Part shown: positions 901 to 63,179 of the stretch, one piece after another
How positions within the stretch are numbered: position 1 is the stretch's first letter
How the letters are laid out: each line of letters starts with the position of its first letter
Assembly: GCF_016097555.1 (NCBI RefSeq)
Contig: NC_054712.1
Span: 46,506,323 to 46,570,322, forward strand
From: Gigantopelta aegis
Taxonomy: Eukaryota; Mollusca; Gastropoda; Neomphalida; Peltospiridae
Direction: 5' to 3'
DNA: 64,000 nucleotides
Notes under the pieces: generated by a model
Told to the model about the DNA's origin: nothing
What the model saw: the letters and a program-made list of their open reading frames with translations, nothing else
Databases searched by the model: none
Program-made: the position numbers and the translations under genes

Positions 901-1888
901 TATGCAAAATATCTTCGACAGTAAATAAAAATAGGTTAAATAAATAATTGAGGTTACATTATTGTGAATCGAACCACCACCGAATAGAGTAATTATTTTA
1001 AACAGTAAATAATGTAGAAAGAAGTATAAAAAGTGCACATTAGGGTGGATTTAAACATCACTAAATAAAAAAATTGACTTATACAATAAATAACAATCTA
1101 TAACATTAACAAAAAAGTGTACATTCGTCTAAGTTAAAACAATTTGTAATTAACATAAATAGCCGAACTGGAATTGGACGTAAGACAAAATGTCAACAGT
1201 GAAAATGCCAACGGTTTAATTGTCAATGGTCAAAATGTTAACGACCAAAATATCAGTGGAACAAATGCCAACAGTCAAAATATCAACTATTAAGGTGGTA
1301 CCCAGGTCAAAAGGTCAACTTTCAGATTATACATAATTTGTAAACAAAAGAAAGAAAAAAAAGTAGTTGTATTTAACTATTAGAGCGCATTGTGTTATTA
1401 ATCATCGGCTATTGGATGTCAAACATTTGGTAATTTTGACATATAGTCTTAGAGAGGAAACCCGCTACATTTTCACATTTGTAGCTAGGGATCTTTTATC
1501 TGCACCACCCGACAGACTGGATAACAGTCCTCAATATCCATTATCTATGTGTCAACTATACAGATGTATAAGGATAATAACCCAATTCTGTTGTTTACAT
1601 CACAGACACACGTATGAAATCAATAAAAAAAATATCAAATATATAGAGTAGCATAATTATCAAGGATACGGACCCAACGCCAATGTTAATTTCAGAAATA
1701 AAAACTTGTGAAACATACAGACAAAAAATTCAAGAAAACACATCCACTAATTTCGCAAAAGACAATCGACAAGGAATAAGGGTACTCAGCATTTGACGTA
1801 TCAAATCCAGTACAAGGCTTATATTTAACTGGTAGTAATTATTACCCAAAATAAAACAAATTAGAGCTGATGCACATCAAGTACCAAA
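900..1888. repeat. 3' flank shared with RTX copy 2 (segmental duplication, left arm)
   Basis: Alternating blocks match 29690-31584 in the same order. One set is an AT-rich stretch with an 'aataggtta..aataat', 'caccgaata..a', 'aaacatcacta' series. A second set is the last 350 bases before the coding exon, with 'ggacccaac.cca', 'cagcatttga' and 'atttaactgg.agtaatta'. The duplication that made the two RTX genes therefore included at least 1 kb downstream of the stop codon. A degenerate 15-18 bp tandem pattern ('aatgccaacagtcaaaat'-like, 1187-1315) and a SINE fragment lie inside the left copy only. Confidence 0.75.
1355..1545 (-). repeat. SINE fragment (core + T2 tail)
   Basis: Read on the minus strand it runs core, 'gcgggtttcctctc', 'aattaccaaatgtttgacat', 'ccgatgattaat', then a degenerate T2 tail. 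The tRNA-like head is missing. It interrupts the duplicated 3' flank and is absent from the copy 2 flank. Confidence 0.7.
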
Positions 1889-4800
1889 TTACTTTTTCAT
1901 ACTTTGTTCAACGTTGGCGACGATAGCAGTGTAGACGCCTGTAGGATTGTTCTTTGCCAGGTACTTTTCAAATGCCGAGGTTGCCTCACTTTCAGTCCAA
2001 GATGCACTTGTTATAGCAATTCCATATGTGTTGGCGCTGATGACCTTCTCGAGCAAGAATATCAAGAACTGAGCTCCTTCCTTTTTACCGTCCTGAAACA
2101 GGATGCCTCCAGGAAAATGGGCTGCAATCTGCAGAGTAAATTCGGTTGCACTGATGCTTGTTGCAGATGGATCAATAGGGAAGGACCATTTGAATATATC
2201 ATTCTCCATATACGTGTTCATAAGGACGTTGAGATGTTCCGATGATTTCCACACAGCTATACGCAGCATTTGAGATTCCCACGTTTCAATTGCCTTGAGG
2301 AACACTTTCCCACCAGAGTTGAGAAAGTCCCGACGAAAGTATCCATTCTGGATTGGCTGGTCGGCTAAGTAGACGGGAACCTTGGAAAATCTGACGATCT
2401 CATACTCATTGTCGTTTTTGAACATAAAGCAGTTTGGTGCCTTGTCCAGCCAAGCAATGATCTTGGAGCCATTTTTGATCTTCATGGGAATGTTTGTGGT
2501 TTCGTTAGCTTTCTCCGGGAGCCGCTTGTCATATTGGTCAGACAGTTTTATGCCATTACCAGTCAAACCCTCCAGCATTAAGACATTGCGTCCTGACACA
2601 AAGCTGTTGTCTGGAGATTTGAAGTTGACATATGCCTCCCCTCCACTTGACTGTAGAAACACCACATTGTCTCCCCCTCCCGTCTGTACTTTTACACACC
2701 AGCCTGAAACACGGACAAAGTCATTGCCACCAGATGTGTTTACCCATGCAAAACTCTTATCAGCCACCACGATGTCATCCGCATTTGTCAAAGTCAGTTC
2801 ATCCACGTTTCGTTTCGAGTAATACATAGTCTTGCCTACTGTGGATTCCAGTTGGCTTTTAACAAAATCTTCTATTTCCTGTCCACTCTTGATTCCATCA
2901 TCCATGACAATTCCACCACGCAATCTGTACCGAGCCAGCAGGGAGAAGTATTCGATGTCCATCTCCGTGATGTTTGTTCGGAACTCGTACACGGTCTCGT
3001 CGTTTACCGAGAAAATGATGTGGATTCTGTTATGTTTGACAGTCGTCGAAACATCGACATCTGAAGAACTAACAGTTGGAATCCTCAGTCTCAACTTACT
3101 TTCTCCATCAGTCAGTTCTAAGCGATGGTAGTAGCTGCTCGGTGTCTTTATGTACTTTGGAATATCATCAATAATGGCGATGATGCCACTGTGTACGAAG
3201 AACATGTTGCTGGGTGTCACATTCCGTAGACTGGCCACCAGGGACCCGTTGTAGCTGAGATTATTTGCTGGACCATGCATAGCGTCAATATCAAGACCGT
3301 TTGGATTCATATTGTTAAATATCAAGGAAAGAGTACCTTGTGAGGAATTCTCGATGCTCACAGACTCTCTCCCTGTTCCTAAAATCATGGTGGTGCTTCC
3401 TGACCCAAGTACGACAGTTGTGCTGTGGGATGATGCAGTTTTTTTAACAGTACTCGAGATGTCTACCAGGTTTCTGCCATTACCAAGATTCAGTTTGATT
3501 TTGTTAACATCGAGAAGAGTGTGATTATTTCCATCACCAAGGGTATACTGGGACATGTTCGACTGTGTTACATTCGCCAGGTCTATCATGTGATCATAAT
3601 CGTTGGTAACGTCTACTAGCAAACTGTTCAAGTTATTTTGAAGCATTCTAAAGACTCCTTTGTAATCTAGAACTGTTCCTGTTTTTACGAAAACAAACAC
3701 CTGGAATTGACTGGCAAAGTCAGACATCAAGGAGACTGGATTTCTCAATCCATCTCTGAAGGTATTTCCCCAGTGTTTATCCACAAATATCGTGTCACCA
3801 TTCAGAGTTTGAAACACAAGATCATTATTATTGTTGACCACAATTTTGATATCAGACCAAAGTTTGAAAGTCTGAGACCACAGCCATAGCCTGGTTCGTT
3901 AATGGTGGCTGTGGAGCCTCGGGTGATGTACTGCACTCTGACAGTCTCACTCCTACCATCTTGAAGATGATTGAAGTGGTCAAGGATGTGGAAGAACAAT
4001 TTATTGTTCTGAACATTCACCGAGCCTTTGTTGGTTATGGTGTTACCAGATCTATCAACAATGTTTGCATGCATCAGTCTTATCGCACTTGAATCTTTTT
4101 TCAGGATATCTACAGTCAACAGCCTATTCTCCCATACTCCATTCAGGGAGGATGCCTTCAGACCTGCTTTGTGGACGTTGCTCACAGTTATTGTCATTAT
4201 CTCGGTGATATCTGGTCCACGTATCATGTATGTGTTGATGCCATCGTCGCCACCTTCAAAGTTGTGACAGCCTCTCATACTGACCAACGTGTTTATTCCT
4301 CCTTTGCCTCTGACTGTGGTGCTGCCACCTGATGCTGTCAGCAGGTTGTTTTGGTTGTTTCCTTCTATACGCGACACCATGTGTGAGCCTGTGACGCTCT
4401 GGATGTTCTTCAATCTTGCCCCGGTGGAATTCCCACTGATAAGGCCGTCTCCCAGGGTGACAGTCAGCAAATCATCACCTGCATAGCTCTCCAGATTAAG
4501 AAGGTTTCTACCACGAAACCCATCGATATATGTACAGAAGCGTAAAATGTTCTTAATGAAGATTGTGTCATTTCCTCTTGTTCCTAAGAGACGGAAGTCT
4601 TCCGTGTCACTGTCCACAATAAACGTGTGACCCTTGCTCAGGTTGCTGGCATCCACGTGGTATCTTGCATTGTGCTTGAACAGTGCATTTAGTTGTATAC
4701 GCTTGATATTTTTAAGGTAAATTCTCGTGTCTACTTTATTGCCAGACCACGCCCGTGAGTCTAGTCCAAAGTAATCTTCTTGTATTTTTGAAGCCTCGGC

Positions 4801-5739
4801 CAAGTTGATATCCACGTCCAATAGCATAAATAGATGGCTTGCGTCATATCTTGAATCCCATGATCCTCGTGGTACACGGCTGTGCCGGCTGCTGTTGATT
4901 ATGAGGGTGTTGTCGCCATCACCACCAATGATATATTTCCACATTTCCCATTCTGGAGTAAAACATGAAGACATAATGACAACATTGTCACCGTTTCCAG
5001 TATAAACGTATTCGTTGTATCAATACATGATGTCAATCAGGTTCACGTTGCTTCCACCGATCACCTGGAGATGCACGTCGTCCTTGGTTAACCACAAATT
5101 ATGTTTGTATTTGACATCAGGTTTTGTGAACTCTGTGATCTTTTCCACATTCCGTACACTTGTTGTGCCGCAGAAGGCAAACAGCAGTAGTGCCTCCAGC
5201 TCTCTCCCAAACCTGTATTTTACGGCCATTGTTGAGTTTTCGTAATACGCTATGCTGGAAGATATTTCTTCAATCGCAAAGGCAGATTTCCAAGTTCCAG
5301 TCTCACCTTCTTTCTTTCCATGAGCATAGAGATACTTCCCGTCCGTGACATACTTTAAGTCAGTGTTCCAAGTACTAGTGTCGTGTGCTAAAAACCAAAG
5401 CATCTTTCCTGAAAGGACCTTCAGATCCATCTTGTAGGCATTATCCAAGAATAATCGTTTTAAATCTAATTCGAGACTTGAATTGGATGTAAAAGCTTTC
5501 TTGTGGATAGGATCAGGTCGATCTAGTTCTGATATATCATTCACAAGAGCGCTGAGTGCCATTCCCGCCAGGCCTTTCTTGTCCGACAGGTCAACGTAAC
5601 AGCCTAGTACATGATTAGGACCTACACCCAGTTTGATGATATTCTCTGTATTGTCATGGTGCGTGTAAAAGAATTCTGTAGACACTTCGAGAATATCACT
5701 GCCATCCCCACCATCCACAACTTTGTCCAGGCCAGGTTT

Positions 5740-5938
5740 CATAACTATCCGGTCATCTCCTGTGCCGCCAAACAGTTGATTGCGTCCAGTTCCACCATTC
5801 AGGTAATCATTTCCAGGTCCTCCGTACATAGTGTTATTTCCATGTTCTCCATAAAGTAGATCGTCTCCCTCCTCACCATAGATGGTGTCTGCTCCTGCAC
5901 CTGCCAAGATAAGATCATCGCCAGCGCGACCACGAAGT
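5740..5938 (-). other. RTX nonapeptide block of copy 1 (seven repeats)
   Basis: Seven consecutive nine-residue units fit G-G-x-G-x-D/N-x-hydrophobic-x, for example GEEGDDLLY, GGPGNDYLN and GGTGDDRIV. In known RTX proteins these form a parallel beta-roll that binds calcium between turns. All seven units keep the expected glycine/acid pattern except one with NN and one with RN. Confidence 0.9.
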
Positions 5939-6227
5939 TCCCGACCAATAGATGATGCATCAACCAATGCAATGCGAAGCTGTCTGTCTGCAGAGTCTTT
6001 AACTGCCTTCTCAGACAACCTTTTTAGTATTGTTTTGTCTACTTTACTGGTATCGAAATCCCCTTCTTTAATAATGGAGAGCCTTGGCGTCAATTATATA
6101 CTTAAACATGTCATAACCCTGACCTTTGTATAACTCAGCCTGCCTGTCAATATAGTCATTAAAAGCCTTAGAGTCGACATACTCATCAAATGCCTGACTA
6201 ACCGTATCCTCGTTAGTACGAGTATCG

Positions 6228-6820
6228 ACCATGTCTGCAAAGAATCCAATCAGCATATTTTCCAACCCAACTATTGTGTTTACTAGATCAACAATGAATG
6301 AAATGGCCTGACCAATACCCGGAATGAAATCTAACACAGTGCTGACAACATCTAGGATGATGGACACCCCATCCAGAGCAGCCATGATCCCGTGCATTCC
6401 CATTCTACCATAGTTCTTCTCCTGCCTTGCTTGGTCTGCTGACTTTACATTGCTTACCATCGACATGGCGCCCATTGTAACACTTAGAACACCTCCAACC
6501 ACTGACCCGAACCGAGAGAGCGTTTTTGTGGCATGTTTGGAGACTTCAAAACCACCACTTACGAGTTTCTGGGATATTTTTGGGCCCACCTTCTCTGCAA
6601 TTATATTTCCGAGATCAACCACCCCATTGGCTATTCCAAATCCTCCCTGAGCAATTTCTAACTGTGCTTCATTTTTTATTTCGTTATAGTCAGCTTCATC
6701 AATCTCACCCTTAGCAAACATCTTTTTGGCATCTGATAACTTCTCCTCTCCCACTGCGATCCCTATCAATGCACTGACTACACCAAAACCTGCTGAAGCT
6801 GCCCCTATCTTGTTACTGAT
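6228..6820 (-). other. Hydrophobic, membrane-insertion-like region of RTX copy 1
   Basis: The translation alternates Ala/Gly/Ile/Val-rich stretches with short charged linkers. It starts near IGAASAGFGVVSALIGIAVG and ends in a run containing IILDVVSTVLDFIPGIGQAI. This pattern is reminiscent of the translocation/pore segment of TcdA/TcdB-type toxins. It is strongly conserved in copy 2 (about 35900-36470), which suggests past constraint. Family membership is inferred by eye. Confidence 0.5.
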
Positions 6821-7894
6821 TTTACCTAGAACCTTCTTAGCTCGTATCGAACCAGATTTCTTTGAAGACACATCAGCTAGTTTCTTTGAGTACAGCTCAT
6901 GCTTGGCCAAGGCAATCTTCTTCTTACCGAGAAAGGTTTTGGCTTCCACATCTGCTAGTAACTTCTTGATGGCACCATCCTGCATTTCAGCTGTGTTCGA
7001 CTTGTCGATGATGCGATGTGGTTTGTCGCCGAACATCTCCTCAAAGTCTATCTCCTCCTTGAGGATGGCATCGATGTCTTCTTGGGCTGCGTCCAACTTC
7101 TCCTGCCACCTGTTGTAGTCCAGCAGATGGATATCCAGGGACTGGTCAATGATGTCATGCAGGGAGCTGGTCAGATCATTTGTATAGCCACCCTGCTCAG
7201 TGATGAACTTGGTGTAACGAACCAGCTCGTTGTCCTTATTGCCATCCAGCACCTCCTTGGCGATCCTCTTGGACAGACCCATTCTGCTGATATCTCCCTC
7301 GGGACTCTCCGGATACACGACCTTTTTCAAGTCGTGAATGTTCGCCTCGCCCCTCATGGACTTGTTGAAGTGATCCAAAGCCTTGATGATGTCTGGGTCG
7401 CTTTTCAGCTCCTCCACGGCCTCGGTGTACTCGGAACTGGCGCCGGTGCTTCTTAGAGTCGCCGTCATAGAGTCGATGGTCTTCACAGGGTTGAGGGCAT
7501 CTCTGTTGTTGTACATGGTGCCCTGTTTGATGTTCTTGGAGAAATCTAATGCGAATCTGCTCATGAACTTGGACTGTGCATCCGTGTTGAACACGTCGGT
7601 ATCTGTCATCGTGTAGGTAGAGTGTGGTCTGAAATTAGTAACATGTAGAAGTTTTCATTAGTACAAATGTACTGAAGTTTGAGTACATACCTAGACGAAG
7701 TGTGAAAGCAGCTATCTCGCCTCATCACAATGAAAGAAAACTAATGAGAAACAAAAACGAAACTATAATTCTAAGCAAACACATTTGTACAAACGATTCA
7801 GGGTGAATCTCTAGTAAAATGTTAGATTATTTTCAAATCGAAATTCGTCGTATTTTAAGTGCCTATTTTGCATTTATACCCGTAAATCCTACAT

Positions 7895-8250
7895 TTGTTT
7901 ATTTGATTTATTAATATTCGGCAAGTGTCATATATTTGGTAATTCTGACATATAGTTTTGGAAAAGAAACCTGCTACAATTTTCCATTAGTAGCAAGGAA
8001 TATTTTATATGCACCATCCCACAGACATGATTGCACCTGCCATGGCCTTCAGCTGTGGTCGAATGGCTGGAACGCGAAATAGCCCAATGAGCCCACCAAG
8101 GAGGATTAATAACAAAAGAGACAGACAGATACGCACAGAGACACTAGGTCTTTCGTATACCAGTCGTGATGCACTGGCTAGAGTGAGAAATAACCCAATA
8201 GTCTCATCGCCGAGGATCGATTCTATTCCATAATACCGACCACGCATCAG
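7895..8250 (-). repeat. Two SINE fragments (H1 type)
   Basis: The first fragment (7895-8110) carries a core with 'tgcaccatcccacagaca' and the head-side 'ggaacgcgaaatagcccaat'. A second head-side fragment, 8135-8250, repeats 'ccagtcgtgatgcactggct' and 'gaggatcgatt'. Both are diverged from the family consensus seen elsewhere in the window. Confidence 0.65.
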
Positions 8251-8443
8251 GGGCCTAATTCACAAAGGTCTCCCAGGCTCTGCTAGACAACAAAGCATCC
8301 TCTTTGCAAGTCGTTTAGCATTAGTGAGATCGCAAAGTTGCGAGAGTTTAGTTAATTGGGCCCCAGGCTAGCGTTTTACCAGATAATGAGGGCAGCATCT
8401 GTAAAAACTCTAATTTTTTTGTTTACCCACAGTTTATAAACTG

Positions 8444-8445
<2 letters not shown>

Positions 8446-8485
<40 letters not shown>
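8446..8485. repeat. (TA)n microsatellite
   Basis: About 20 uninterrupted TA units inside intron 1 of RTX copy 1. Confidence 0.95.
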
Positions 8486-8488
<3 letters not shown>

Positions 8489-9934
8489 GCATCTTGAAGA
8501 AAACAGTAACCATGACTTAAATTATTATGCATTTACTGCTGTTTTTCTCTGGTATGTTAGGAAAAAAAATCCCCTCGACAAAATACAATTTCAGCATTTT
8601 ATTGACGTTATTCCGTTGGTATAATTTCCCTCAGTGCAATTGAACAGTCCAGTTGTTGTTCAAATGTTTGTTGAATATTTCTCATTCTCTTAGTTAATAA
8701 TTAACTTCAATATTCGAACACGATTGTGGCATTCAGACATGATCTTATTAACCATCGTTTACACCAGGGTATTCGTAGAATGTGCATAACATCCTATCGA
8801 GACAAAGGATATGTTACGGAGTCCGATGTAGAAATTGAAGTTTCCCATTGCTTTATTACCTAGATACCGTTTCCATAAATTATGGTGTTCATAACTGTTT
8901 CATTGGTTCATAAGATAACGTTGTTCGTCCTAAGGCCAATAGAAGGTGTATCTCAATTTCGAATTATTTGCAAATACTATTCCATATGTTTTGAATAAAA
9001 AATATATCGAAACATAATTGATTTTATACACATACTATTATAACCACTTTCAGTTAGTCATTTTATTCCTCTAACAACTGCCTGGGGACAAAAAGAGAGA
9101 AAAAACACACGTTGCAAGTTTGTTGTTGTTCGTTTATCTTCTGCGCGATTCTATTAGCATTTGTAATATAGTGAGCGTATGACGGAACACTAATAGCAAT
9201 CTTTAAAATTTATCCACATTTAAAAATAAACTGCAGCTATTATTGTTATCATTATGCCCAATATATTTCTACCTTTGTTTCGACTGTTAGCAAATAGAAT
9301 AGAATTTTGACATCGGAACGAATGAGGAAAGTGACTAATGTCTAACCTAACTCAGATTATGGGGAGCCATTTAAGACATCATCATATTAATAACAAATAC
9401 CTGCACATACAGCTAAACATTATTCTCTTAAATGGTAAGGTCTCGTAGTGAGAGAAGTGACGTCAAGTCACATATATAGCTATATTCATTACAAAATCGT
9501 CCATTAGACTTAGATACTCGACCAATGTAGCTTGAAAAAAGGTTTTTGCCCTTAATATCTTAAGAAAACACAAACACACACGCACGCACGCACTCGCGCC
9601 AACACTGCGTTTGTGGGTAACACGAATGATCAATCCTTGATGTTTTGTGCCAAATGAAACATGCGGTAATAAGACACTAACGAAAACAACGCATAGGAAA
9701 CTAAGCGACAGGAGATTTAAGTTAGATCATCTAACGAGTGCTCAAAATCACGTTTTCTTGTTAAATCCTGCTTGCCTATGAGAGTTTATATAAATTGCCC
9801 TACATACTACGAAAATCAACCAAACAAAAGTAGATTTAAATATGCTAGTTTTATTAGAATATACACTAAAATAATGTTCAATTCGTGATATAAACTTCAT
9901 GGTTATTAAAACAAAATAACATAATAGTACTTAC

Positions 9935-10025
9935 CTGAATACAAGCTTGATGTTATGTTAGAACGGCGTGTGGTTACCAGTTCACCTGTCTGGTGTTGTG
10001 TAACACACGCTCAGTCTTTTATATA
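9935..10025 (-). promoter_or_regulatory. TATA box and non-coding exon 1 of RTX copy 1
   Basis: On the minus strand a TATATAAAA box (10017-10025) is followed about 25-30 nt later by a plausible start site near 9990, then a short exon ending 'atcaagcttgtattcag' at 9935 with donor GTAAGT. The same arrangement with related sequence occurs at 41563-41630 for copy 2. The exon has no coding content. The start site is inferred from TATA spacing only. Confidence 0.7.
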
Positions 10026-10162
10026 CCATTGGGTTTTGATTTATGGAAAATACGTAATTGGTTAATATCAGTTTTGGCAATGGAATTAATTTTACGATGG
10101 TTCACTTTTATTTATTACCTGCTTGTTACAAAGTCGTGTAAATCATGTGCACATATTGCCTA

Positions 10163-10193
<31 letters not shown>

Positions 10194-12398: not shown

Positions 12399-12402
12399 TT
12401 AA

Positions 12403-12786
12403 AGGGACATTCCCAAGTTTGCTGCATTGTAAGATGTTTCCTACTAATAAAATATTTCTACGATTAAACTTACATATTAAATATATTTTCTTGTTTGGAA
12501 TATCAGTGTCTGTATATTCCATATGTTTCTGGTCGTCTTAATATTTGTAAGAAGCCCAAACTTAATTTTGTGTTCAAATAATTTCGTACGTATGAAAAGA
12601 AATATATTTTGGGAAATAAAATTAAATTTAAACTAGTACAAATATTAGAACGATCAAAAACAGGTTTAATATACAGCCACTAATATTGTATGCAGAAAAA
12701 TATATTTCATATGTAATTACAATCGTTAAAAACTCTCTGTTAGTCAATAAAAACTTTAAAATTGCAGCAAACTCAGGACTGTCCCT
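12403..12786. mobile_element. MITE-2 copy a (TTAA target)
   Basis: Terminal inverted repeats start AGGGACATTC.. and end ..ATTGCAGCAAACTCAGGACT GTCCCT, flanked on both sides by TTAA (12399-12402 and 12787-12790). It is 384 bp and non-coding. Copies lie at 42874-43256 and 50404-50936. TTAA duplication is the known hallmark of piggyBac-type transposition; the family is inferred from that. Confidence 0.85.
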
Positions 12787-12879
12787 TTAATTATCTAAAT
12801 ATCTCAAGTTTTGTTGTTTTAGTGTAATCACATTAGCCGTGGCCATTTATCAGCAAATTTAAATGATTGAATTTTCAAG

Positions 12880-13184: not shown

Positions 13185-13640
13185 ACAGGGTTTTGATTTA
13201 CGGAAACTACGTAATTGGTTAATAACAATGTTGGCAATGCGATTAGTTTTACAATGATTCACTTTTATTTACTACCTGCTTATTACAAAATCGTGTAAAT
13301 CATGTGCACATATTGCCTACATTTATCCTCAAAGGTTTTAACAAAAGAATTAACTATGAACTATATGGTTTAGATATGTTACTGTATTCATTATATTCTC
13401 AATAAAGTGTAGTCCAAAGGCACTTTTTTATGCATAATTTTAAATACTTTTTAAATACAAATTTTAAAGTTTTTTTAAGTAAATACATATGCAGTTGCGA
13501 AAATGTTTTTTGCCTGGTTTTAAATTTACAATGTTATAAAGCTGATGTTTAATGTAGGCAAGTGCGAGTGAAACTTTAAAATGTAGCAGAGGCATCAGGG
13601 TATTTTCTTGTTAGATTTATTAATGTAGTAGTAGTGCCCC
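13185..13640. repeat. Orphan promoter-upstream block P2
   Basis: Colinear with the sequence upstream of the RTX copy 1 TATA box (10026-10335) over both of its halves, but no TATA box, exon 1 or coding exon lies beside it. A SINE-D head abuts where the TATA would be. It retains about 180 bp that P1 has lost. Confidence 0.75.
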
Positions 13641-29689: not shown

Positions 29690-31584
29690 AAACATAATTT
29701 TACTGAAAATGCACAAAGGTTTATATAATTAAATAAGAATAGGTTACATAAATAATAACGTTTAAATTATTGAAAATTGAACTAACACCGAATAAAGAAA
29801 TTGTTTTATACTATAAACAAAAAAATAAATAAATAAATACAAATGTTTACATTAGTGTCAATTGAAACATCACTAATCGGAATACGTAGTTTATATACGT
29901 AAATAAGAATCTATAAAAATCAATAATAACAGATTAGCATCGGCTAAGTTGAAAGAGCTCTTAATTAACATAAATAAACATACGACTCAATCAGGCGGAC
30001 GATCGATCTGTACTTGGCCTACACGTATAATCGATATCATCGATGTTTTAAAAGTACTCGAATAAATATCCCCCTCTACATGGGCTGTGGGACTCGAATA
30101 ACTCATCTATATCCCCCACTACATGGGCTGTGGGACTCGAATAACTCATCTATATCCCCCACTACATTTGCTGTGGGACTCGAATAACGCATCTATATCC
30201 CCCTCTACATGATAGTGACTTTTAGTTGTCACATCCTGCCATAAAAATATTTATTTTACCATACCAGTCTCCATTTTAACTCTTTTTTCGGTCAAATATT
30301 TCAGTTTGGCTTCTAATGGAAAAAAAAAGGAAAAGTTTTTTTGTTTTTTATTTGTTTTGTTCTCCCCCCCCCCTTTTTTGGGGGGGGGGTTGGAAATAAC
30401 AAAAATGTTCTATTTTTATATGCAAATTTCACTAATATTGGTCCATATATAAATAAAACAGTAATACCCAAAGTGAAGAGTTTATCCTACTAAACGCTTT
30501 GATTATTGGTTGTTAATCTTTCTCAGCTGGTTAGAGATTTTAAAAGAATATATAATTTCAAACTCCGTATGCAGCCCACATTCTTCATTATGGTTAGTGC
30601 TATTTATTTATATATTTACCACTCTTTATAAAATAGGCACATAAAGACACATTTATAATTATCAGAATCAATCGTGATAATTTTTCACGTTTATGCGTGT
30701 ATGAATCACAGAACCGATTTACACACTGTGTCGTTCATACAGAGTGTAATGCAGTTCTGTGGTTCATATAAGAAATAATTCCAATCAGTAAATAGTCTTT
30801 TATTATAAATGCTTGGACAAGTCCTAATGATATCTCGTTAATTTAAAAAACCCACGACGTTCATAAACCTATGCACCTCAGTTGTGCCCTACGTTTTTTG
30901 TTAATGTTGAATCAGTAATTGTTATTAATTGTTTAAAATTGTTTGTATTAATTTATGAAAGAATGTGAGAATTTCCTCACTCGGCTACCGACAGAAAGCA
31001 GAAACGAGGAATTAGGATTCCCCATATTTCATAAACTATTTTTTTTTTAAAGATTTGATTATTATTTTATACCATTTTATATTGATCAAATAGTTATACA
31101 CTTGAAATTACAAAAATTGTACATAATAACTTTCCGATTACTTTCACACTTGTGTACGAACGTCCTATAGAATCAAGAGAGAAAAACTAACATGACCCAA
31201 AATAAAAACAACAAATATAACAAACCCATTATCTACTCTTCAACTAACTATACTATGATACATAGACTGACGGACGTACAGATATCAAGGATAGTGATCC
31301 AGCTCCATGTCCTGTGTAATATAACACACACGTATATAACAGACAAAATACCTAAAATGTCACGCAATCAATAAAAACATATATGGACCCAACACCAGCA
31401 ATTGTGAAATTAAAAAAGACAACCCAGTTCAATTACTAATTCCGTCCAGATCAAGAAGTAAAAACGGATAAAGATAATCAGCATTTGATGCACCACATCC
31501 AATACCAGGCTTAGATACTGAGATATTTAACTGGCAGTAATTATAGCAAGGATCCTTACGCAAAAGAGTTAACCAAAAACCGAA
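29690..31584. repeat. 3' flank of RTX copy 2 (segmental duplication, right arm)
   Basis: Matches 900-1888 in two blocks (about 29690-29960 and 31290-31584). Between them is about 1.3 kb not seen in copy 1, including a 43-bp tandem repeat and a C/G-run pair near 30366-30389. Confidence 0.75.
30055..30215. repeat. 43-bp tandem repeat, about 3.7 copies
   Basis: The unit holds 'tatcccccactacatgggct' and 'gtgggactcgaata'. Confidence 0.9.
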
Positions 31585-34500
31585 TTACGCAGTCAGACTT
31601 AGGGCAACGTTGGTGACGATGGTGGTGTAGTCCTTAGTAGGGTTGTTCGTAGCCAGGTAGTTATTAAACGCCGACGTTGCCTGGCTCTCAGTCCAGGATG
31701 CGCTGGTTACAGATATCCCAGATATGTTGGCACTGACGATCTTCTGAAGCAGGAACACCAAAAACTGTCCTCCTTTCTTCGTGCCGTCCTGCAACTGAAT
31801 GCCTCCAGGGAACTGAACTGCCATCTGCAGAGTGACGTCAGTTGCACTGACGCTTGTGCCACCATTAGTTGTGAAGGAGCTTTGGAAGATGCTGAACACA
31901 GAAGGCGAGTACATTCTGAGGTAGCTACCATAATCATTCGAGATCTTTATCTGCAGTTCAGAGGACCTCACGTCAGTTGCCTTGAGGAACATCTCGCCAT
32001 CAGAGTTCATAAAGTCCCGGGCAGTGTATCGACTGTATGGCTGGTTGGAAAAGTAGGTGGGAACTCCCGAAAATTTGATGATCTCATATTCGTTGCCATT
32101 CTTGAACATCAAGCAGCTTGGTGCTTTGTCCACCTGGACGATGAGTCTGGAGCCGTTTTTAATCTTTATGTGTGTGTGTTTTCATATGGCTGCGACGAGA
32201 GCCTCCCGTCGTTTTCGTCGGTCAATGTCACACCAGTGCCGGTGACACCTTCCACGACCAGGACATTTCGTCCTGAAATATAGCTGTTGTCCGGAGCTTT
32301 GAAAGCAACAGATACATTCTGCGCACCTGACTGTACAAACACGATATCCTTTCCTTCTCCTGTCCGTACAGTTACATTTGAGGCTGAAACGCGGATAAAG
32401 TCATTGCCACCGCTAGTGTTCACAACTGACCCACTCCGATCAGCCACCACGATGTCATCTACATTTGCCAAAGTCAGTTCTGCCACGTTTTGTTTCGAGA
32501 GATATATAACGTTTCCCAAAGCACCACCACTGGATGGCAGCTTGCTCTTTACAAAATCTTCGAGTGCCTGTCCACTTTTGGTTCCGTCACTCATGACAAC
32601 ACCACCTCGCAGTCTGTACCGAGTGAGTAGGGCGAAGTAGTCGACATCCATCTCAGAGGTGTTTGTTAGGAATTCGTACACAGTCTCATTGTTAGCTGAG
32701 AAAGTGACACGGATACCAGTATCTGTGACAGATGTCAGGACATCCACATCAGTAGAACTAACAGTTGGAATCCTAAGTCTCAACTTACGTTTTCCATCGA
32801 CCAATTCTAAGCGATGGTAGTAGCTGCTCGGTGTCCTAATATACTTTGGAATATCGTCAATAATGGCCATGACACCATTGTTTAAGAAGGACATGTTGCT
32901 GGGTGTCACATGGCGTAGACTGGTCACCAGGGACCCGTTGTAGCTGAAATTATATGCTGGACCATACATCTCGTCAATATCAAGATCGTTTGGATTCATA
33001 TTTTTGAATATCAAGGAAAGAGTACCTTGTGAAGAATTCTCAATATTCACAGGTTCTCGCCCTGTTCCCAAAACCACAGTGGTTTCTCCTGACCCGAGTA
33101 CGATGGTTGTCGTCATATAAAATGATCCACTTTTCGTTACAGCACCTGAGACGTCTACAAGGTTTCTGCCATTACCAAGAATCAGTTTGATTTTCTTAAC
33201 ATTGAGAAGAGTGTGGTTGTTCCCATCACCAAGAGTATATCGGGACATGTACAACTGTGTTATACTAGCCAGATCTATCCTGTGATCATAGTTGTTGGTG
33301 GCATCTACTAGCAAGTTGCCGAGATTTTCTACAAGCATGGTAAAGACTCCTTTGTAGTCTAGCACTGTTCCTGATATTTCAAAAACAACCACCTGGAACC
33401 GCCTGGCAAAGTTAGATATCAAGGAGACTGGGTTTCTCAATCCATCCCTAAAAGAATTGCCCCAGTGTTTGTCCACAAAGATAGTCTCACCATTCAGAGT
33501 TTGAAACTCAAGATCATTATTGTTGTTGATCACAATTTTGATATCAGCCGGTCTTCCAAAGTTTGAAAGTCTGAGAGCACAACCATAGCCTGGTTCGTTA
33601 ATGGTGGCTGTGGAGCCTCGGGTGATGTACTGCACTCTGACAGTCTCGCTCTTGCCATCCTCAAGGTGGTTGAAGTGGTCAAGGATGCGGAAGAACAGAT
33701 TTATTGTTCTGAACACTCACTGAGCCTTTGTTGGTGATGGTTTTCCCAGATCCATCAACAATGCTTGCATGTAACAGAGTTATCGCACTTAATTCATTCT
33801 TCAGGAGATCTACAGTCAACAGCCTATTCCCCCATACTCCGAGCAGCGATGATGCCTGCAGACCTGCTGTGTGGACGTTGGTCACAGTTATTGTCATTAT
33901 CTCGTAGATATCTGGTCCACTTATAATGTATGTGTTGATGCCATTGTCGCCACTTTCAAAGTTGTGACAGCCTCTCATACTGACCAACGTGTTGATTCCT
34001 CCTTTGCTTCTGACTGTGGTGCTGCCACCTGAGGCTATCAGCAGGTTGTCTCGGCTGTTCCCTTCTATGCTAGTCACCATGTGCGATCCCTTGACACTCT
34101 GGATGTTCTTCAGTACTGTCCAGATCGAATTCCCTCTGATAGAGCCGCTCCTGAACCCATCTGACAGGGAAACTGTCAGCAAGTCGTACCTTCGTAACTC
34201 TCCAGGTTGAGGAGGTTTGTACCACCTAAACAATCGATCATTGAACTCTTGCGTGCAATGTTTTTGATAAAGACTGTGTCGTCACCTGGTGTTCCTAAGA
34301 GACGGAAGTGTTCCGTGTCACTGTCCACAATAAAGGTGTGACCCTTGCTCAGGTTGCTGGCATCCACGTAGTAGCTTGCATTGTGCTTGAACTGTGCATT
34401 TAGTTGTATACGCTTGATATTTTTAAGGTAAATTCCCCTGTCCACCTTATTGCCAGACCATGCCCGTGAGTCTATTCCATTTTTGGCAGCCTGGCCAAGT

Positions 34501-35419
34501 TGATATCAGCTTCCAGTAGCATAAACAGATGGCCTGCATCATAGCTAGAATGCCATGATCCCCGTGGTACTCTGCTGCGATTGCTGCTGTTGATGATGAG
34601 GGTATTGTCACCGTCGCCACCAATGATGTACTTCCACATTTCCCATTCTGGTGAGAAAGAGGAAGACATAATGACAACGTTGTCACCATTGCCGGTATAA
34701 ACGTATTCATTGTATCCATACATGATGTCAATCAGGTTCGTGTTGTTGTCTCCGATCACCTGGAGATGTATGTCAACCTCTTTCCTGGATTCAACTATCT
34801 TTTCTACATTTTTTACACACGTTGTGCCACGGAAAGCAAACAGCAGCAGTGCCTCTATCTCCTTACCAGAGTCGTACGTCAAGGCCATCGTCGTTTCATC
34901 ATAATGAGCGATGCTGGAAGAGATGCTTCCTATTGTTAAGGATGATTTCCAAGTTCCTGACCATCCTTCTTTTTTACCATGGGCATAGAGGTATTGCCCG
35001 TCTGTAACATACTTCAAGTCAGTGTTCCAGGCACTTGTCGTGTCGTGGGCTAGAAACCAAACCATCTTTCCAGACAGATTCTTCAAATCCAACCTGTGGG
35101 CATTAACCCAGAATAATCTTTTTCAAATCTGATTCGAGACTTGAATTGGAGGTAAACGCTTTCTTGTGGATAGGGTCTGGTCGATCTAGCTCTGATACAT
35201 CATTTACAAGAGCACCAAGTGCTAACCCAGCACGACCATTTTTGTTTGAATTCTGATCTGACAGGTCAACGTAGCAGCCTTGTACATGATCAGAACCAAA
35301 ACCCAGCTTGATGGTATTCTCTGCCCCGTGTTGGTACCAGCTAAAGAACTCTGCAGACACTTCAACAGTGTCACTGCCTGGACCGCCGTCGACCATTGTG
35401 TCCAAGCCAGGTTTTACAA

Positions 35420-35610
35420 CCATCCAATCATCTCCCGTGCCACCAAACAGTTGATTGCGTCCAGTTCCACCATTCAGGTAATCATTTCCAGGTCCTCCAT
35501 ACAAAGTGTTATTTCCTTTTTCTCCATAAAGCAGGTCATCTCCCTCCTCACCATAGATGGTGTCTGCTCCTGCACCTGCCATGATAAGATCATCGCCAGC
35601 GCGACCACGA
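35420..35610 (-). other. RTX nonapeptide block of copy 2 (seven repeats)
   Basis: Seven units in the same order as copy 1, for example AGAGADTIY, GEKGNNTLY and GGTGDDWMV. Only conservative changes separate the copies here, while the surrounding sequence is more diverged. Confidence 0.9.
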
Positions 35611-35894
35611 AGTTCCCGACCGATAGATGATGCATCCACCAATGCAATGCGAAGCTGTCTGTTTGCAGAGTCTTCAACTGCCTTGTCAGACAACTTCTTA
35701 ATTATCGTTTTGTCAACTTTGCTGGAATCAAAATCCCCTTCCTTGATATCAAGAGCCTTGGCATCAATTATGAACTGAAAAAGGTCGTACCCCTGATCTT
35801 TGTACACCTTCGCCTGCCTATCAACGTAGTCTTCAAAAGCCTTGGATTCGATGTACTCATCAAATGCCAGTTTAACCTTATCCTCGTCAGTACG

Positions 35895-36475
35895 GGTATC
35901 GACCATGTCTGCAAAGAATCCAATCAGCATACTGACCAACCCAACTATGGTGTTTACTAAATCAACAATCAGTGAAACAGCCTGACCAATACCCGGGATA
36001 AAATCTAACACAGTGCTGACAACATCTAGGATGATAGACACCCCATCCAGAGCAGCCATGATCCCATACATTGCCATTCTACCATAGTTCTTCTCTTGCC
36101 TTGCTTCGTCTGCAGCCATTGCATTGCTTGCCATCGACATGGCGCCCATGCCAATACTCAAAGCACTTCCAACAACTGTCCCAAACCGAGTGAGCATTTT
36201 CGTAACTTTTGAACTGAGGCTAAGACCTCGACTAGCGAGCTTCTTTGAGACCTTTGGGCCTACCTTTTCCGCAATTAGAGTTCCCAGGTCATACACGCCA
36301 CTACCTATTCCAAAAGCCCCCTGTGCAATTTCTAACTGTGCCTCGCTTCTTATTTTGTTATATTCGGCCTGATTAATCTCACCATTTTCCAATTTCGTTT
36401 TAGCGTCAGACAACTTCTGATCTCCTACTGCAATACCCAACCCTCCAGTGACTGCACCAAAACCTGCAGTGACTG
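35895..36475 (-). other. Hydrophobic, membrane-insertion-like region of RTX copy 2
   Basis: Counterpart of 6228-6820, including GIMAALDGVSIILDVVSTVL, a run identical to copy 1. The helical spacing and glycine positions match, supporting a structured membrane-active segment. The pore-forming role is inferred. Confidence 0.5.
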
Positions 36476-38802
36476 CACCTATCTTGTTACTGACTTTACC
36501 TAGCGTGTCCTTAGCCCGTATCGAACCAGCTTTCTTGGAAGACACGTCGGCCAGTTTCTTTGTGATCAGCTCATGCTTGGCCACGGCAATACTTTTCTTG
36601 TCTATAAAAGTCTTGGCTTCCACATCAGCTAGCGACGTCTTAGTGGCACCGTCTTGCATGTCAGCTGTGTTTGACTTGTCGATGATGCGCTGCGGGTTAT
36701 CGCCGTGCTTCTTGTCAAACTCTATCTCCTCCTGGTTGATGGCATCGATATCTTCTTGAGATGCGTCCAGCTTCTCCTGCCACTTGTTGTAGTGCCGCAG
36801 GTGGACGTCCAGGGACGAGTCGATGATGTCATGCAGGGTGCTGGGGATATCCGTCAGGTAGCCACCATATTCGGTGATGTAGTCGGTGTAGCGGACCAGC
36901 TCGCTGTCTTCTTCATCATCCACCTCCTCCTTGACGATCTTTTCGTACAGACCCAGTTTATTGACCTCTCCCTCGGGGCTCTCCGGATACACGGCCTTTT
37001 TCATCTCATGAATGTTCGCCTCGCCTTTCATGGACTTGCTGAAGTGATCCAAAGCCTTGATGATATCCGGATCACTTTTCAGCTCCTCTACGGCCTCGAT
37101 GTACTCGGAACTGGCGCCGGTACTTCTTAGTGACGCCGTCAGAGAGTCGATGGTGTTCAGAGGGTTGAGGGCGTCTCTGTTGTAGTCCATGGCGCTCCGC
37201 TTGATGTTCTTGGTGAAGTCCATGCCGAATCTGCTCATGAACTTGGACTGAGCCTCCACATTGAACACGTCTGTCTCTGCCATCGTGTAGGTCGAGTGTG
37301 GTCTGCAATTAGTAACATGTATAAGTTTTCGTTAGTACTGAAGTTTCAGTATATACCTAGCAGATGAACGAAAATGCACTCTCGCCTTATTAAGAGGCAA
37401 ATTTTAACACCAAGGAAGCAAAACTACATTTTTAGTGTCTTTTTATTTTGTAATGAAAATGTATTGTTATTTTCATTAGTGTCTCGAAATATGGCTACAA
37501 GTGGTGTCATAAAGAAGGCTGTGCAGGAGATTTGTAGCATGCTGTTATGGATTTCCTAGGGGAGTGTCGGTGCTCCTAAGGTAGACGACCATGGTTATTT
37601 GTGAATCTTTAGCTGAGATTTATGCATGCCAGCCCCTGGCATCCTAAATGCCTACCTATGGTTTAAGAATAAAGAAAAATACAGGTATTTTAGTCTCAAA
37701 GAAATTACACAAAGGGTCATAATTATAAAGAGGACTCATTTTAAATATTTTTAGTTAAATTTCTGTGTTACGTTCATCATAATGTGCCCAAACTGCATGA
37801 ATTTGTGTGCATTTTTGACAATATTCAAACCCATACAAACCACATCCAAGCAGGAGTTGGGGATAAAACCCTTATATTTATGGAAACTTTGCACATCAAA
37901 CCTTAAAAAACATTTCATTTGAATAAAGGTTTAGCTATTAAATTTTCACAAACTCTGCTTGTTTGAAAATTACCTAAATTGATCGTGTCCCACTTTTGTC
38001 ACAAGGAAAACCCTGTGCATGAATACCATGCCCTGTTACAGCTAAACTGTTTGCACTGCTGGTGAAAACACCAATTGTCATTTTTCAATATAACTCTTTG
38101 CCTATCACTAATAACACTCACTGATCACTGTCAAAACAACTGTGAACAAATGGAAAGGTTAATGAAATTATGGTCTGCTAAATATCCCTTGATCATTCCC
38201 AAAATAACATATTTTAATTACAGCTTTACCTAACCCAAGTCAAATATTGAAATATATTATTTTACAAATGTTTTGTCACATTAGTACTGGTAGGTTAGCA
38301 CGTAGCTTACTAATTCAAAATTATAAAGATTCCGGAATTATTCAGATTAACTTAAGTAATTATATAAGTGCGTTAAAACAATACATGGAATGTTAACGAA
38401 TAAGCCAAATATTAAATATAGCACAGGTATTTCTGTAGTCGATTCAAATATACATGGCGACTATTTCTTTACGTTTAAAACCAGACGGTATAGAACAATT
38501 TGGAGAGATGAATCGTACACCAGAGTACAGTCACAACAAGAACAACACCCACAAAACAGATGATATATCAGGAATTAAAATTTGGTACAACAGTAAAATA
38601 TGTTTAGATAATACATACTTTAAAACTTATAAGGGAAATGTTAATGAACAAGGAGACTTTATGAAGTATGAAGGGTTTACCGGTATACCACTTAACTACA
38701 AATAATTTACAGCATGATCTATTGATAAATTCATAACTGTAACAACAGATGTGATCATTACGTCATTACATTGATTAAACAATTATTTTATTGCATATAA
38801 TA

Positions 38803-38941
38803 CACACACACACACACACGCACGCACGCACGCACACACACAAGGATTGCGCAAGGATTATCCAACTTACAAGGCCCTCTCCTAAGTACAAACATTAAAT
38901 TGTACAATAATGGCGACTGCAATTTTCAATAAATAAATTAA

Positions 38942-38988
<47 letters not shown>
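38803..38988. repeat. (CA)n microsatellites
   Basis: Two CA tracts, 38803-38842 (with CGCA variants) and 38946-38988. Confidence 0.95.
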
Positions 38989-38990
<2 letters not shown>

Positions 38991-39066
38991 CAACTCCCTA
39001 CACCAGCTAGATAGGTCCCCTGGTTATTGTCGCGTAATAGTGTCATTAATTTGTCAATTCTAGAGA

Positions 39067-39387
39067 GAAAAAAAGAAAGAAATGTTTTATTTAACGACGC
39101 ACTCAACACATTTTATTTACGATTATATGGCGTCGGACATATGGTTAAGGACCACACAGATATTGAGAGAGCAAACCTGCTGTCACCACTTCATGGGCTA
39201 CTCTTTTTGATTAGCAGCAAGGGATCTTTTATATGCATCATTCTGCAGACAGGATAGTACATACCACGGCCTTTGATATACCCGTCGTGGTGCACTGTAT
39301 GGAACGAGAAATAGCCTAATGGGCCCACCGACGGGGATCGATTCCAGACCGACCGCGCATCGAGCGAGCGCTGTACCACTGGGCTAC
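39067..39387 (-). repeat. SINE (H1 + core + T1), full length with target duplication
   Basis: The 12-bp direct repeat caattctagaga flanks it (39055-39066 and 39388-39399). On the minus strand it runs from 'gtagcccagtggtacagcgc' to the TTTC tail. Confidence 0.9.
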
Positions 39388-39569
39388 CAATTCTAGAGAT
39401 TCAGACCTTGACAAAACAAAAAGTCATTGCATGATTGATGAAACTTTGTCTTGGGGCAACGTGATTTACATGCATTGTTCCACAGATCGAATCCCCTAAA
39501 TGGATCCATTTTTATGATTGGGTTTTTCCCGTAAATGTAGACACAGGAACACCCCTGGGTCCGCGCCTC

Positions 39570-39901
39570 AGGGTCTAGCTCAGTGAGTAGAGCGCTCGCC
39601 TGAGGGTCTAGCTCACTGAGTAGAGCGCTCGCCTGAGGGTCTAGCTCAGTGAGTAGAGCGCTCGCCTGAGGGTCTAGCTCAGTGAGTAGAGGTCTCGCCT
39701 GAGGGTCTAGCTCAGTGAGTAGAGGTCTCGCCTGAGGGTCTAGCTCAGTGAGTAGAGGTCTCGCCTGAGGGTCTAGCTCAGTGAGTAGAGGTCTCGCCTG
39801 ACGGTCTAGCTCAGTGAGTAGAGGTCTCGCCTGAAGGTCTAGCTCAGTGAGTAGAGGTCTCGCCTGAAGGTCTAGCTCAGTGAGTAGAGCGCTCGCCTGA
39901 G
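39570..39901 (+). repeat. 33-bp tandem array of a tRNA-like box-A unit, ten copies
   Basis: Ten head-to-tail copies of 'ggtctagctcagtgagtaga' plus 13 further bases. The unit matches the 5' arm of a tRNA (A-box TRGCNNAGY-like) and the H3 SINE head. Units 1-3 and 10 carry 'gcgctcg', units 4-9 'ggtctcg'. The last unit runs into the rest of an H3 SINE. The long minus-strand open frame with a repeated Leu-Leu-Thr-Glu-Leu-Asp pattern is a by-product of the 33-bp period. Confidence 0.9.
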
Positions 39902-40110
39902 GTGCTTCGACGTAGGATCGAACAGCCTCCGTGGACCCATTCTCTAATTGGGTTTCATCCCGTGACAACCAGTGCTCCATAACTGGTATACCAAAGGTTG
40001 TGGCATGTGATGTCCTGCCTGTGGGAAAGTGCATATAAAAGATTCCTTGCTGCTAATGGAAAAGGTGTTGCAGATTTCCTTTTAAGATTACATACCAGAA
40101 TTACCAAATA
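39895..40110 (+). repeat. SINE (H3 head + core), body of the expanded element
   Basis: Continues from the box-A array through 'aggtgcttcgacgtaggatc', the core with 'taactggtataccaaaggtt' and 'aaaagattccttgctgctaa', to a T2-type 3' region lacking its end. Confidence 0.75.
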
Positions 40111-40795
40111 AATATGGTACATGAAGATACTTACAAAAATCACGTATGAGAAATCGGTGGAAATCGGATGAAAGATTTGACTAATTCCTAAAACAACCGC
40201 CTGAAGAGAGGAAACAAAAATAGAAAATTATTTTTGTTATTGTCCTACAATATGGATTCGTACAAAATTGAGTTTAATTTAATAACCACATAATCTTCAG
40301 TCTGTATTAGACGGTAAAAACATGCTAAATATTATTTCTTTCGTTTGAGGGACGAATTGAAAAGAAACGGTTTTCACTTTCGTCGAAGTACAAAAGGTTA
40401 GGTAATGTGCCACAATGTCCGTTAAAGCGTTCAGCAAATTTGGTATTAACTTAGACTTTACAACACGACACAAAAATCTGAGTAGTTAATTATTAAATTT
40501 AGTTAGGGACATTTGGGCCTTGGGAACAAACGACTGGGCAGATTGCGTCGGTTGCTCAACCCGTGTGGCCTTCCATAGGCAATAGAGTGACTTAAAGTAC
40601 AACGTTCGGGGACTTCTATTATGAATGTTGAAACAAGACCCCTTTTGATTGTGAATTGGACGCCATCTATCGTATAGACGTCAAAGACAGCAACAGTGAA
40701 GAAAAAGGACCAATATGCAGTTTCGTTAAATAAAACTCACAAAGACGCATCGTTGAAGACCAAATGGCAGACTATCTTTACTAAACAAATTAGAA
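40111..40795. other. No recognised feature
   Basis: Intronic sequence of RTX copy 2 with no repeat family or coding evidence. Confidence 0.35.
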
Positions 40796-40796
40796 A

Positions 40797-41512
40797 GGAT
40801 CGATCCCATTGGGCTATTTCTCGTTCCAACCAATAGCGACTGGTATATCAAAAACCGTAGTATGTGCTATCATATCTGTGGGATGGTGTATATAAAAGAT
40901 TCGTTGCTACTAATGGAAACAAAAATGGAGCGGGTTTCCTTTCTAAGACTATAAGTTCAAATTACCAAATGTTTGACATCCAATAGTGCATATAAAAGTC
41001 CCTTGTTGCTAATGAAAACTATATAACCAGTTTCCTCTTAGTCTTCTTACCAGAATGACCAAATGTTTGACATTCAAAAGCCGATGATTAATGAAGCAAT
41101 GTGTCGTTAAAGGGACAGACCCTAGTTTTTAAACACTAAGGCATATTTTTCACCTAGACTCTAGTTTCAACCAGTAAAAATGGACACTAAGTTTGGTTAA
41201 TTTACAAACCTGTAACAAATTTGGATACAACAGAATGAATCAAGAGTCTGTGACGTTGAAATGCCCTTTAAAATAAACTAAAATGTGACTCTATAACAGT
41301 TACTTCTCAGACGCACGTGCGGTTTTTTAAATATTAAAATGCATTTTATTATATTAGAAACACCAGGATGACCAGAAACACTTCGGTTGTACGGAAATGG
41401 ATAATCTAAACAATAAAATATAAGTAATGTTTGATTTCAGACATCATAAACGGTGAAATAAAATATGTCTTAGTGTTTAAAAAATAGGGTCTGTCCCTTT
41501 AAGCAAAACAAA
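40797..41512 (+). repeat. SINE with duplicated 3' half, tail split by MITE-1
   Basis: The core and 3' region (40797-40985) are followed by a second copy of the 3' region (40986-41110). The T2 tail is cut at its TTAA by MITE-1 and resumes at 41503 as 'gcaaaacaaact'. Confidence 0.75.
41111..41498. mobile_element. MITE-1 copy a (TTAA target)
   Basis: Inverted termini AGGGACAGACCCTA.. and ..TAGGGTCTGTCCCT extend about 30 bp, flanked by TTAA at 41107-41110 and 41499-41502. It is 388 bp, non-coding, with an internal 'cagacgcacgtgcg' palindrome-like segment shared with copy b. Confidence 0.9.
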
Positions 41513-41562
41513 CTTAAACTTTACAATTGATGATGATTAAATTTAAATAAAATATTACTCAC

Positions 41563-41630
41563 CTGTATACAAGCTTGATGTCCTTCCTGAACGGAGTGTG
41601 GCTACCGGTTCGCCTCGCCGGTGTTTTATA
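41563..41630 (-). promoter_or_regulatory. TATA box and non-coding exon 1 of RTX copy 2
   Basis: TATAAAA at 41624-41630 (minus strand) lies upstream of an exon that ends 'atcaagcttgtatacag' at 41563 with donor GTGAGT. Exon sequence is clearly related to 9935-10025 (for example 'ggt.gccacac.ccgttc'), so promoter and exon were duplicated with the gene. Confidence 0.7.
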
Positions 41631-41785
41631 CACGTTTAGGTTTTTGATTTACGGAAAGTTCGTAATTGGATAATATCCATTTTGTCAATGGAATTGGTTT
41701 CACAACGATTCACGTTTATTTATTACCTATTTACTGCAAACTCGTGTAAATCATTCGTCCGTATTGCTGACATCTACCCGTAATG
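41631..41785. repeat. Promoter-upstream block P4
   Basis: Colinear with P1 just upstream of the copy 2 TATA box: 'ggtttttgatttacgg', 'cgtaattgg.taatat', 'ctcgtgtaaatcatt'. Similarity fades beyond about 150 bp. Confidence 0.7.
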
Positions 41786-42869: not shown

Positions 42870-42873
42870 TTAA

Positions 42874-43256: not shown

Positions 43257-43489
43257 TTAATATAACACTCTTTAACTTTGAAAAGTGCTTTTAGCCGGAT
43301 GTAAATACTTGCTAATAAATAACAACTTATAATTAGGTGAAAATGAAGGTGCCATTCTCCGTAATGAGCGAAACATGTGGTGGACACAACATATAAGGTT
43401 ATCGCGCATTACCTCTGAATTTACTACTTCCGCGTGTATTTGTTAATGAGTTTAATTATCAGGATAATTGTACTAGTCTGTTGAACAAA

Positions 43490-47370: not shown

Positions 47371-56151
<8,781 letters not shown>

Positions 56152-63095: not shown

Positions 63096-63179
63096 ATATG
63101 GAACCGAAAAATTAAAATGAATACCTGTGGTTTGGCGACATATTTTAGTTAACAAAGCTTTAACAAAACAGTGGTACTT

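Follow-up and report, generated by a model that had tools for sequence, protein, structure and literature searches.

Genes of bacterial toxin type are already known in animals. The biomphalysins and glabralysins of Biomphalaria, to which the genes reported here can be likened by description, are bacterial-type toxins studied as snail immune effectors; in the excerpted accounts they are beta-pore families, unlike the RTX genes considered here, and to our knowledge they lack RTX repeats. A closer likeness is found in an RTX exoprotein family represented by a presumed Psychromonas aquimarina (2,052 and 1,796 amino acids (aa)), Photobacterium (1,789 aa) and Vibrio tapetis (1,804 aa). Here we describe two tandem genes of this family, both on the minus strand and about 30 kb apart, in a 64,000-nucleotide stretch of the genome of the gastropod Gigantopelta aegis (the window; C14:46506323-46570322 of the 1.149-Gb assembly, in the interior of a 59.9-Mb contig). 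The bacterial proteins have the same N-terminal half with a hydrophobic segment and the same RTX block, and in the 2,052-aa Psychromonas protein the C-terminal half can also be aligned to the window genes. The Psychromonas and Photobacterium genes lie behind ABC-HlyD-ABC genes, whereas those in the window lie behind a TATA box and a putative intron in the 5' untranslated region (5'UTR), and no exporter was found in the window. The relatives from red algae and Polyangium occupy a separate tree branch and are unbroken predicted proteins, unlike the window copies, and the coral Oculina patagonica has an animal gene of the same family that is shorter and on a different branch.

Our results make it probable that an RTX gene was acquired horizontally and once domesticated, that it probably encoded a calcium-dependent effector, and that it is now decaying in this assembly. 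The locus is genuine and chromosomal, has a bacterial ancestry and was once under selection; its frame is interrupted, and its membership of a known pore family is unsupported; its function is inferred. The coding regions and the protein features that they encode are as follows.

1889-7609, minus strand: RTX-family coding region of copy 1, in pieces 7609-6068, 6093-5020, 5019-3802 and 3898-1889
31585-37283, minus strand: RTX-family coding region of copy 2, in pieces 37283-35103, 35122-34472, 34505-34176, 34281-33679, 33716-32166 and 32181-31585
5686-5931, minus strand: RTX nonapeptide block of copy 1 (PF00353, E 2.2e-16)
35361-35606, minus strand: RTX nonapeptide block of copy 2 (PF00353, E 1.4e-17)
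6218-6400, minus strand: conserved hydrophobic helical segment of copy 1, from hydropathy and the family alignment
35892-36077, minus strand: conserved hydrophobic helical segment of copy 2, from hydropathy (residues 403-464) and low-confidence long helices

The two copies (copy 1, 7609-1889; copy 2, 37283-31585) are homologous at the DNA level over 1776-7694 and 31468-37360 with 79% identity, a span that begins about 110 bp past the stop and ends some 66 bp above the splice acceptor. The initial annotation had described one uninterrupted 5.7-kb exon, a claim that does not hold, copy 1 being made up of four pieces and copy 2 of six. In copy 1, where the first open piece reaches 7654-6068 and the four pieces overlap or abut, the frame changes at least twice and is once interrupted by an in-frame stop (5020-5022); copy 2 has at least five frame changes, at places other than the breaks of copy 1. 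The ten coding pieces (4 + 6) were analysed separately and never joined.

Each of the ten pieces has its match in a single uncharacterised family of RTX exoproteins about 1,900 aa long, and because the matches run in order the resemblance is more than chance. The BLAST comparisons cover the best 24 rows per piece, and the best 6 in a later comparison of two copy 2 pieces. The first search returned a strong but partial relative in the red alga Agarophyton chilense and two weak repeat matches, and a genome scan found relatives in two Photobacterium species, the 1,789-aa protein of Photobacterium matching at 32% over 668 residues, well beyond the repeats. Alignment-based searches found 128 proteins, and at least 13 of the 120 listed cover 70% or more of the query: two from two Polyangium species, three from red algae, one from a coral and seven others, among which P0009 and P0010 are themselves query rows. 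Most of the remaining listed proteins align over 3-11% of the query, in the repeats, and were set aside. Identity to P0009 is 44% for the first piece of copy 2 and 47%, 41% and 24% for the second to fourth pieces of copy 1. The proteins of Agarophyton chilense (P0054), Gracilariopsis chorda (P0059 and P0060, on contigs of 342 and 400 kb) and Polyangium (P0056 and P0057) are colinear over their full length and 40-44% identical to the first piece of copy 2, while the Oculina patagonica protein (P0062; 1,694 aa, on a 64-Mb contig) matches at 34% over 748 residues. At source the red algal and Polyangium proteins carry names such as 'Iron-regulated protein FrpA' and 'Hemolysin, chromosomal', which probably reflect their RTX repeats. 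No mollusc is among the named relatives listed, about a quarter of the proteins being named and fragments lying beyond the length limits. None of the 2 and 67 pattern matches in viral contigs was confirmed as a relative, and none of 1,612 plasmid records covers 80% of the query, and among the best 20 of the 1,612 most matches fall in the repeat block or beside it.

The genomic context of the bacterial members is that of type I secretion. In Photobacterium the family gene sits behind ABC, HlyD and C39-ABC genes, and among 295 genomes of its order two contain a match, that Photobacterium and the presumed Psychromonas aquimarina. In the latter (L026 2305-14158) two tandem family genes, for proteins of 1,796 and 2,052 aa, lie behind ABC-HlyD-ABC, and the larger product aligns with all four copy 1 pieces (35% over 729 residues). 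The Vibrio tapetis member (P0008) matches at 38% over 402 residues; this species is named as the agent of clam brown ring disease in the consulted part of one paper (PMC5825899). Type I secretion genes are thus present beside two bacterial relatives and were not found in the window, where no ABC or HlyD domain was detected in 17 of the 18 open reading frames of at least 150 aa (a 161-aa frame at 17286 lay outside the scan). Bacterial ancestry of the RTX gene is well supported, because its relatives are colinear and type I secretion genes stand beside two bacterial members.

A tree built with bacterial relatives bears out this affinity. In both the N-terminal and the middle-region trees the window copies are sister to red algal, Polyangium and other proteins (bootstrap 86-87) with the coral outside, the same position being obtained from two separate regions, and the window branch is flanked by bacterial members on either side. 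The first tree, with two more long rows, left the part containing the window, red algal and coral proteins unresolved; one N-terminal tree omits P0063 and P0064, the later trees omit P0006, P0063, P0064 and P0007 (the 1,796-aa Psychromonas row, the same protein judging by length and contig, standing in for P0007), and the middle-region tree has 18 rows only. A single clade of window, coral and red algal proteins is rejected by the approximately unbiased test (p-AU 3.9e-6, 3e-12 and 5.6e-5), as is a clade of window and red algal proteins (p-AU 9e-10 and 1e-46). A clade of window and coral proteins gives p-AU of 0.051, 0.026 and 0.12, the coral group including P0015 in the N-terminal tests, and a single animal acquisition is on this basis not firmly rejected. 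The red algal proteins do not form one clade in the N-terminal tree (p-AU 8e-8); in the middle-region tree they fall in one group with two other proteins. The trees have midpoint roots, so the direction of transfer is argued from the exporter operons as well. In the N-terminal tree Polyangium falls among the red algal paralogues, which would be compatible with genes having moved between algae and bacteria more than once.

Upstream of each coding region the window contains signals of animal type.

10017-10025, minus strand: TATA box of copy 1, read in the sequence; 140 aligned upstream bases are 78.6% identical to copy 2
9935-9995, minus strand: non-coding exon 1 of copy 1, ending CAG before GTAAGT, its 5' end estimated from the TATA box
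7629-9934, minus strand: putative 5'UTR intron of copy 1, 2.3 kb, GT-AG, with a dispersed repeat at about 7926-8106
41624-41630, minus strand: TATA box of copy 2, read in the sequence
41563-41600, minus strand: non-coding exon 1 of copy 2, ending CAG before GTGAGT, its 5' end estimated from the TATA box
37303-41562, minus strand: putative 5'UTR intron of copy 2, 4.3 kb, GT-AG

The arrangement that the initial annotation had read in copy 1 (TATA box, non-coding exon, GTAAGT donor and an acceptor 19 nt before the ATG) is present in full, and copy 2 shares the layout, as had also been proposed, with a GTGAGT donor. The introns end in AG at 7629 and 37303, and in both copies 19 nt separate the acceptor from the ATG (at 7609 and 37283). 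Promoter and exon 1 form a second block of homology between the copies (9896-10165 with 41527-41773, 72% identity including gaps), in which exon 1 is 78.8% identical over 52 aligned bases; the 3' end of the intron is 91% identical over 58 aligned bases, 18 of the 19 nt of 5'UTR in exon 2 are the same, and the intron interior aligns just in short repeat-like stretches. These identities of 79-91% for promoter, exon 1 and intron end, taken from short stretches picked where homology is detectable, exceed the approximately 64% implied for synonymous sites by a synonymous divergence (dS) of 0.485. Splicing of the 5'UTR intron would be consistent with these signals.

A genome search with the promoter and exon 1 of copy 2 gave three matches, all within the window, a count that may understate the matches as the search skips very common words. 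Two belong to the genes themselves, and the other is a truncated copy.

13187-13328, minus strand: third, truncated promoter copy upstream of copy 1, without TATA box or exon 1, 79.6% identical to 41638-41779

Chromosomal integration of the RTX genes is well supported, because they lie in a 59.9-Mb contig, dispersed repeats flank both copies and another lies inside the copy 1 intron, and the promoter matches are confined to the window. The composition of the RTX gene is not clearly separable from that of three HSP70 genes and one esterase exon. With the N-terminal piece as query, a search of the assembly for further copies found just these two genes. A supposed third gene with RTX matches on another contig (G000:C1:35738500-35747500) was rejected as a minisatellite whose reading frame mimics RTX repeats. 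That this minisatellite passes the Pfam cut-off for RTX is a warning against annotating RTX proteins by profile alone.

Compared piece by piece over 1,882 codons, the two copies are 72.6% identical in amino acids, with a nonsynonymous divergence (dN) of 0.162, a dS of 0.485 and a dN/dS of 0.33; their differences by codon position number 326, 238 and 524, third positions varying most. In a set of ten relatives 501 residues are common to at least nine, and 303 of these are kept by both copies, 34 are changed only in copy 1 and 14 only in copy 2. The codon comparison thus indicates that purifying selection acted after transfer, and domestication of the gene is supported, because the low dN/dS is accompanied by conservation of promoter and splice sites. 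It follows from the dN/dS that the frames were lost late, or that the breaks are errors or polymorphic. An intact frame was found in neither copy, so that of the horizontally acquired, domesticated gene proposed initially the acquisition, integration and past selection stand and the intact frame does not. In the N-terminal tree (7609-6071; 37283-35106) the end branch of copy 1 is 0.28 long and that of copy 2 0.037-0.041, and because the former is far longer the two copies may have been under unequal constraint.

The RTX nonapeptides that had been read in the sequence, putatively calcium-binding, are borne out by PF00353, which matches above its cut-off in both copies. A relaxed RTX motif occurs eight times in each copy, as seven consecutive units and one more. 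The RTX block is the confident part of the structure model, where a beta-roll is predicted whose best PDB matches are RTX domains; of 77 Foldseek matches one reached E<=0.001, and it is an RTX domain. The N-terminal 540 residues are predicted to be helical at low confidence (mean predicted local distance difference test (pLDDT) 56 and 59). In a 25-row alignment, where fragment rows preclude invariance outside about 363-511, all 21 invariant columns fall at residues 367-507, ten of them within the hydrophobic stretch 403-464, and columns conserved in 90% of rows extend from 287 into the RTX block; the hydrophobic segment is strongly, though not uniquely, conserved.

The pore-forming-like region of the initial annotation is retained in part: a hydrophobic segment, helical at low confidence, is present, and a match to a named pore family is not. 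The TcdA/TcdB pore (PF12920) was not matched at E<=1 by any of the nine gene pieces scanned, and a search of 29 family members, which matched 16 families at E<=0.1, did not recover it either, so that its proposed assignment is unsupported; pore formation would be a putative activity. A profile of the N-terminal half found no relative among solved structures, its two weak hits having E of 0.062 and 0.28. The HlyA-type RTX leukotoxin model NF033943 scored 50.7 and 47.9 bits against a curated cut-off of 1000, in the repeat region only, and a type VI secretion system effector (NCBIfam NF041559) was rejected as sub-threshold, with 28.8 of 150 bits. The genes also differ from MARTX toxins: their coding region is 5.7 kb, for about 1,900 aa, and no protease domain was matched in the nine pieces (E<=1), whereas in the consulted parts of two papers MARTX toxins are said to exceed 3,200 aa (PMC3034196) and to feature a cysteine protease domain (PMC4612132). 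Matches to FBA (F-box associated region) were seen in 5 of the 29 family members.

Several observations weigh against the history of acquisition, domestication and decay that we propose. Both copies are broken, with eight breaks in about 11.4 kb, and 150 of the 501 conserved residues are altered in both. Among the matches listed no relative exceeds 50% identity over more than 200 residues. No pore family is matched by the pieces or the family members, and the pLDDT of the N-terminal models is low. In the same assembly, furthermore, five of six near-full-length intronless HSP70 genes (about 10.8 kb in total) are intact and one looks split; the remaining HSP70 matches among 82 listed are partial, many with stops, as expected of spliced or decayed copies. 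With five of six HSP70 genes unbroken against eight breaks in a similar length, sequencing error is the less likely cause, and most of the frame breaks are probably real. Assembly or consensus errors in two intact genes would agree with purifying selection across the pieces and with the family residues conserved in both copies, but the HSP70 control makes this explanation unlikely. Simple homopolymer error was likewise judged unlikely: the copies differ by 18 indels whose length is no multiple of three, and just 3 of these fall at homopolymers (a count that includes alignment artefacts). These same indels, the different places of the three and five breaks, and the absence of further copies in the N-terminal search suit dead fossils, namely the functional gene of an ancestor now reduced to two pseudogenes without a role in this species; the dN/dS and the small number of breaks for a dS of 0.485 mean that such loss would be recent, and promoter and splice sites are still alike, so that we rate it at somewhat under an even chance. 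As to origin, contamination or symbiont sequence accords with the bacterial ancestry of the protein family, but the contig context, the repeats on both sides and inside the intron, the promoter and splice signals alike in both copies and a cholinesterase-like gene in the window largely refute it and leave it extremely improbable. Another eukaryote, alga or cnidarian, as the immediate donor in place of a bacterium is suggested by the relatives in red algae and a coral and by the p-AU values for window with coral, but the rejection of the two clades that include red algae renders it quite improbable.

Our preferred history, by contrast, begins with a gene that encodes a large RTX exoprotein, one of a family secreted by the type I route in bacteria. 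The gene would have entered the animal genome by horizontal transfer, gained a TATA-box promoter and a 5'UTR intron (its splicing predicted from the signals), been duplicated in tandem and then been kept over a long period by purifying selection. RTX folding is driven by calcium, and for this reason we propose that the protein was probably a calcium-dependent latent effector with a helical N-terminal half bearing the hydrophobic segment, the RTX block and a long C-terminal half. No signal peptide is apparent, the N-terminus being non-hydrophobic; the protein would then stay unfolded in low-calcium cytosol, and its RTX block would fold into a beta-roll at high calcium. Once set free in body fluid or sea water, for instance when a cell ruptures, the protein may become active against microbes or parasites. 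As both copies have independent frame breaks, the gene would probably be in the course of loss, or polymorphic, in this species. RTX proteins can act as adhesins, and the product could alternatively be an adhesin, matrix or surface protein in which the RTX block and C-terminal half make a calcium-stabilised extracellular rod. The copy 1 pieces are cysteine-poor (9 Cys in 1,944 residues) and, in the consulted part of one paper, some RTX proteins form protective bacterial surface layers (PMC3034196); a rod, however, would not need the conserved hydrophobic segment in the N-terminal half, and the apparent lack of a signal peptide also speaks against it, which makes this role rather unlikely beside that of a cytolytic effector.

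The locus shows that a bacterial exoprotein family occurs in this animal as well as in a coral and red seaweeds. Its two copies have similar promoters and splice sites, and it offers a concise natural experiment on the retention of a type I secreted protein by organisms that lack the secretion system. It is possible, though doubtful, that red algae, corals and this lineage each took up the same bacterial RTX family independently, as a latent effector that is triggered by calcium and does not depend on secretion, the copies here being lost or polymorphic. Among the open-licence papers listed, at the level of titles and the starts of abstracts, none describes an RTX exoprotein gene from the nuclear genome of an animal or alga, and the terms 'RTX' and 'hemolysin' are absent from the consulted main text of a 2026 compendium of animal transfers; the part consulted of a vent-mussel symbiont paper describes bacterial RTX genes (PMC4612132).

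The remainder of the window is rich in repeats. A dispersed repeat of about 240-340 bp has at least eight copies, starting near 16349, 19916, 21705, 27047, 28610, 39062, 46312 and 48054. Another, of 390 bp, occurs three times with 88-90% identity (12399-12791, 42870-43261 and 50553-50937), two of its copies being upstream of the two RTX genes. At 39564-39902, 48502-49371, 51802-53057 and 62491-63100 there are large minisatellites, their units being 33, 48, 82 and 44 bp long, respectively. On the plus strand, 55069-56151 is a carboxylesterase/cholinesterase-like exon (COesterase, E 6.3e-41) whose best PDB matches are acetylcholinesterases.

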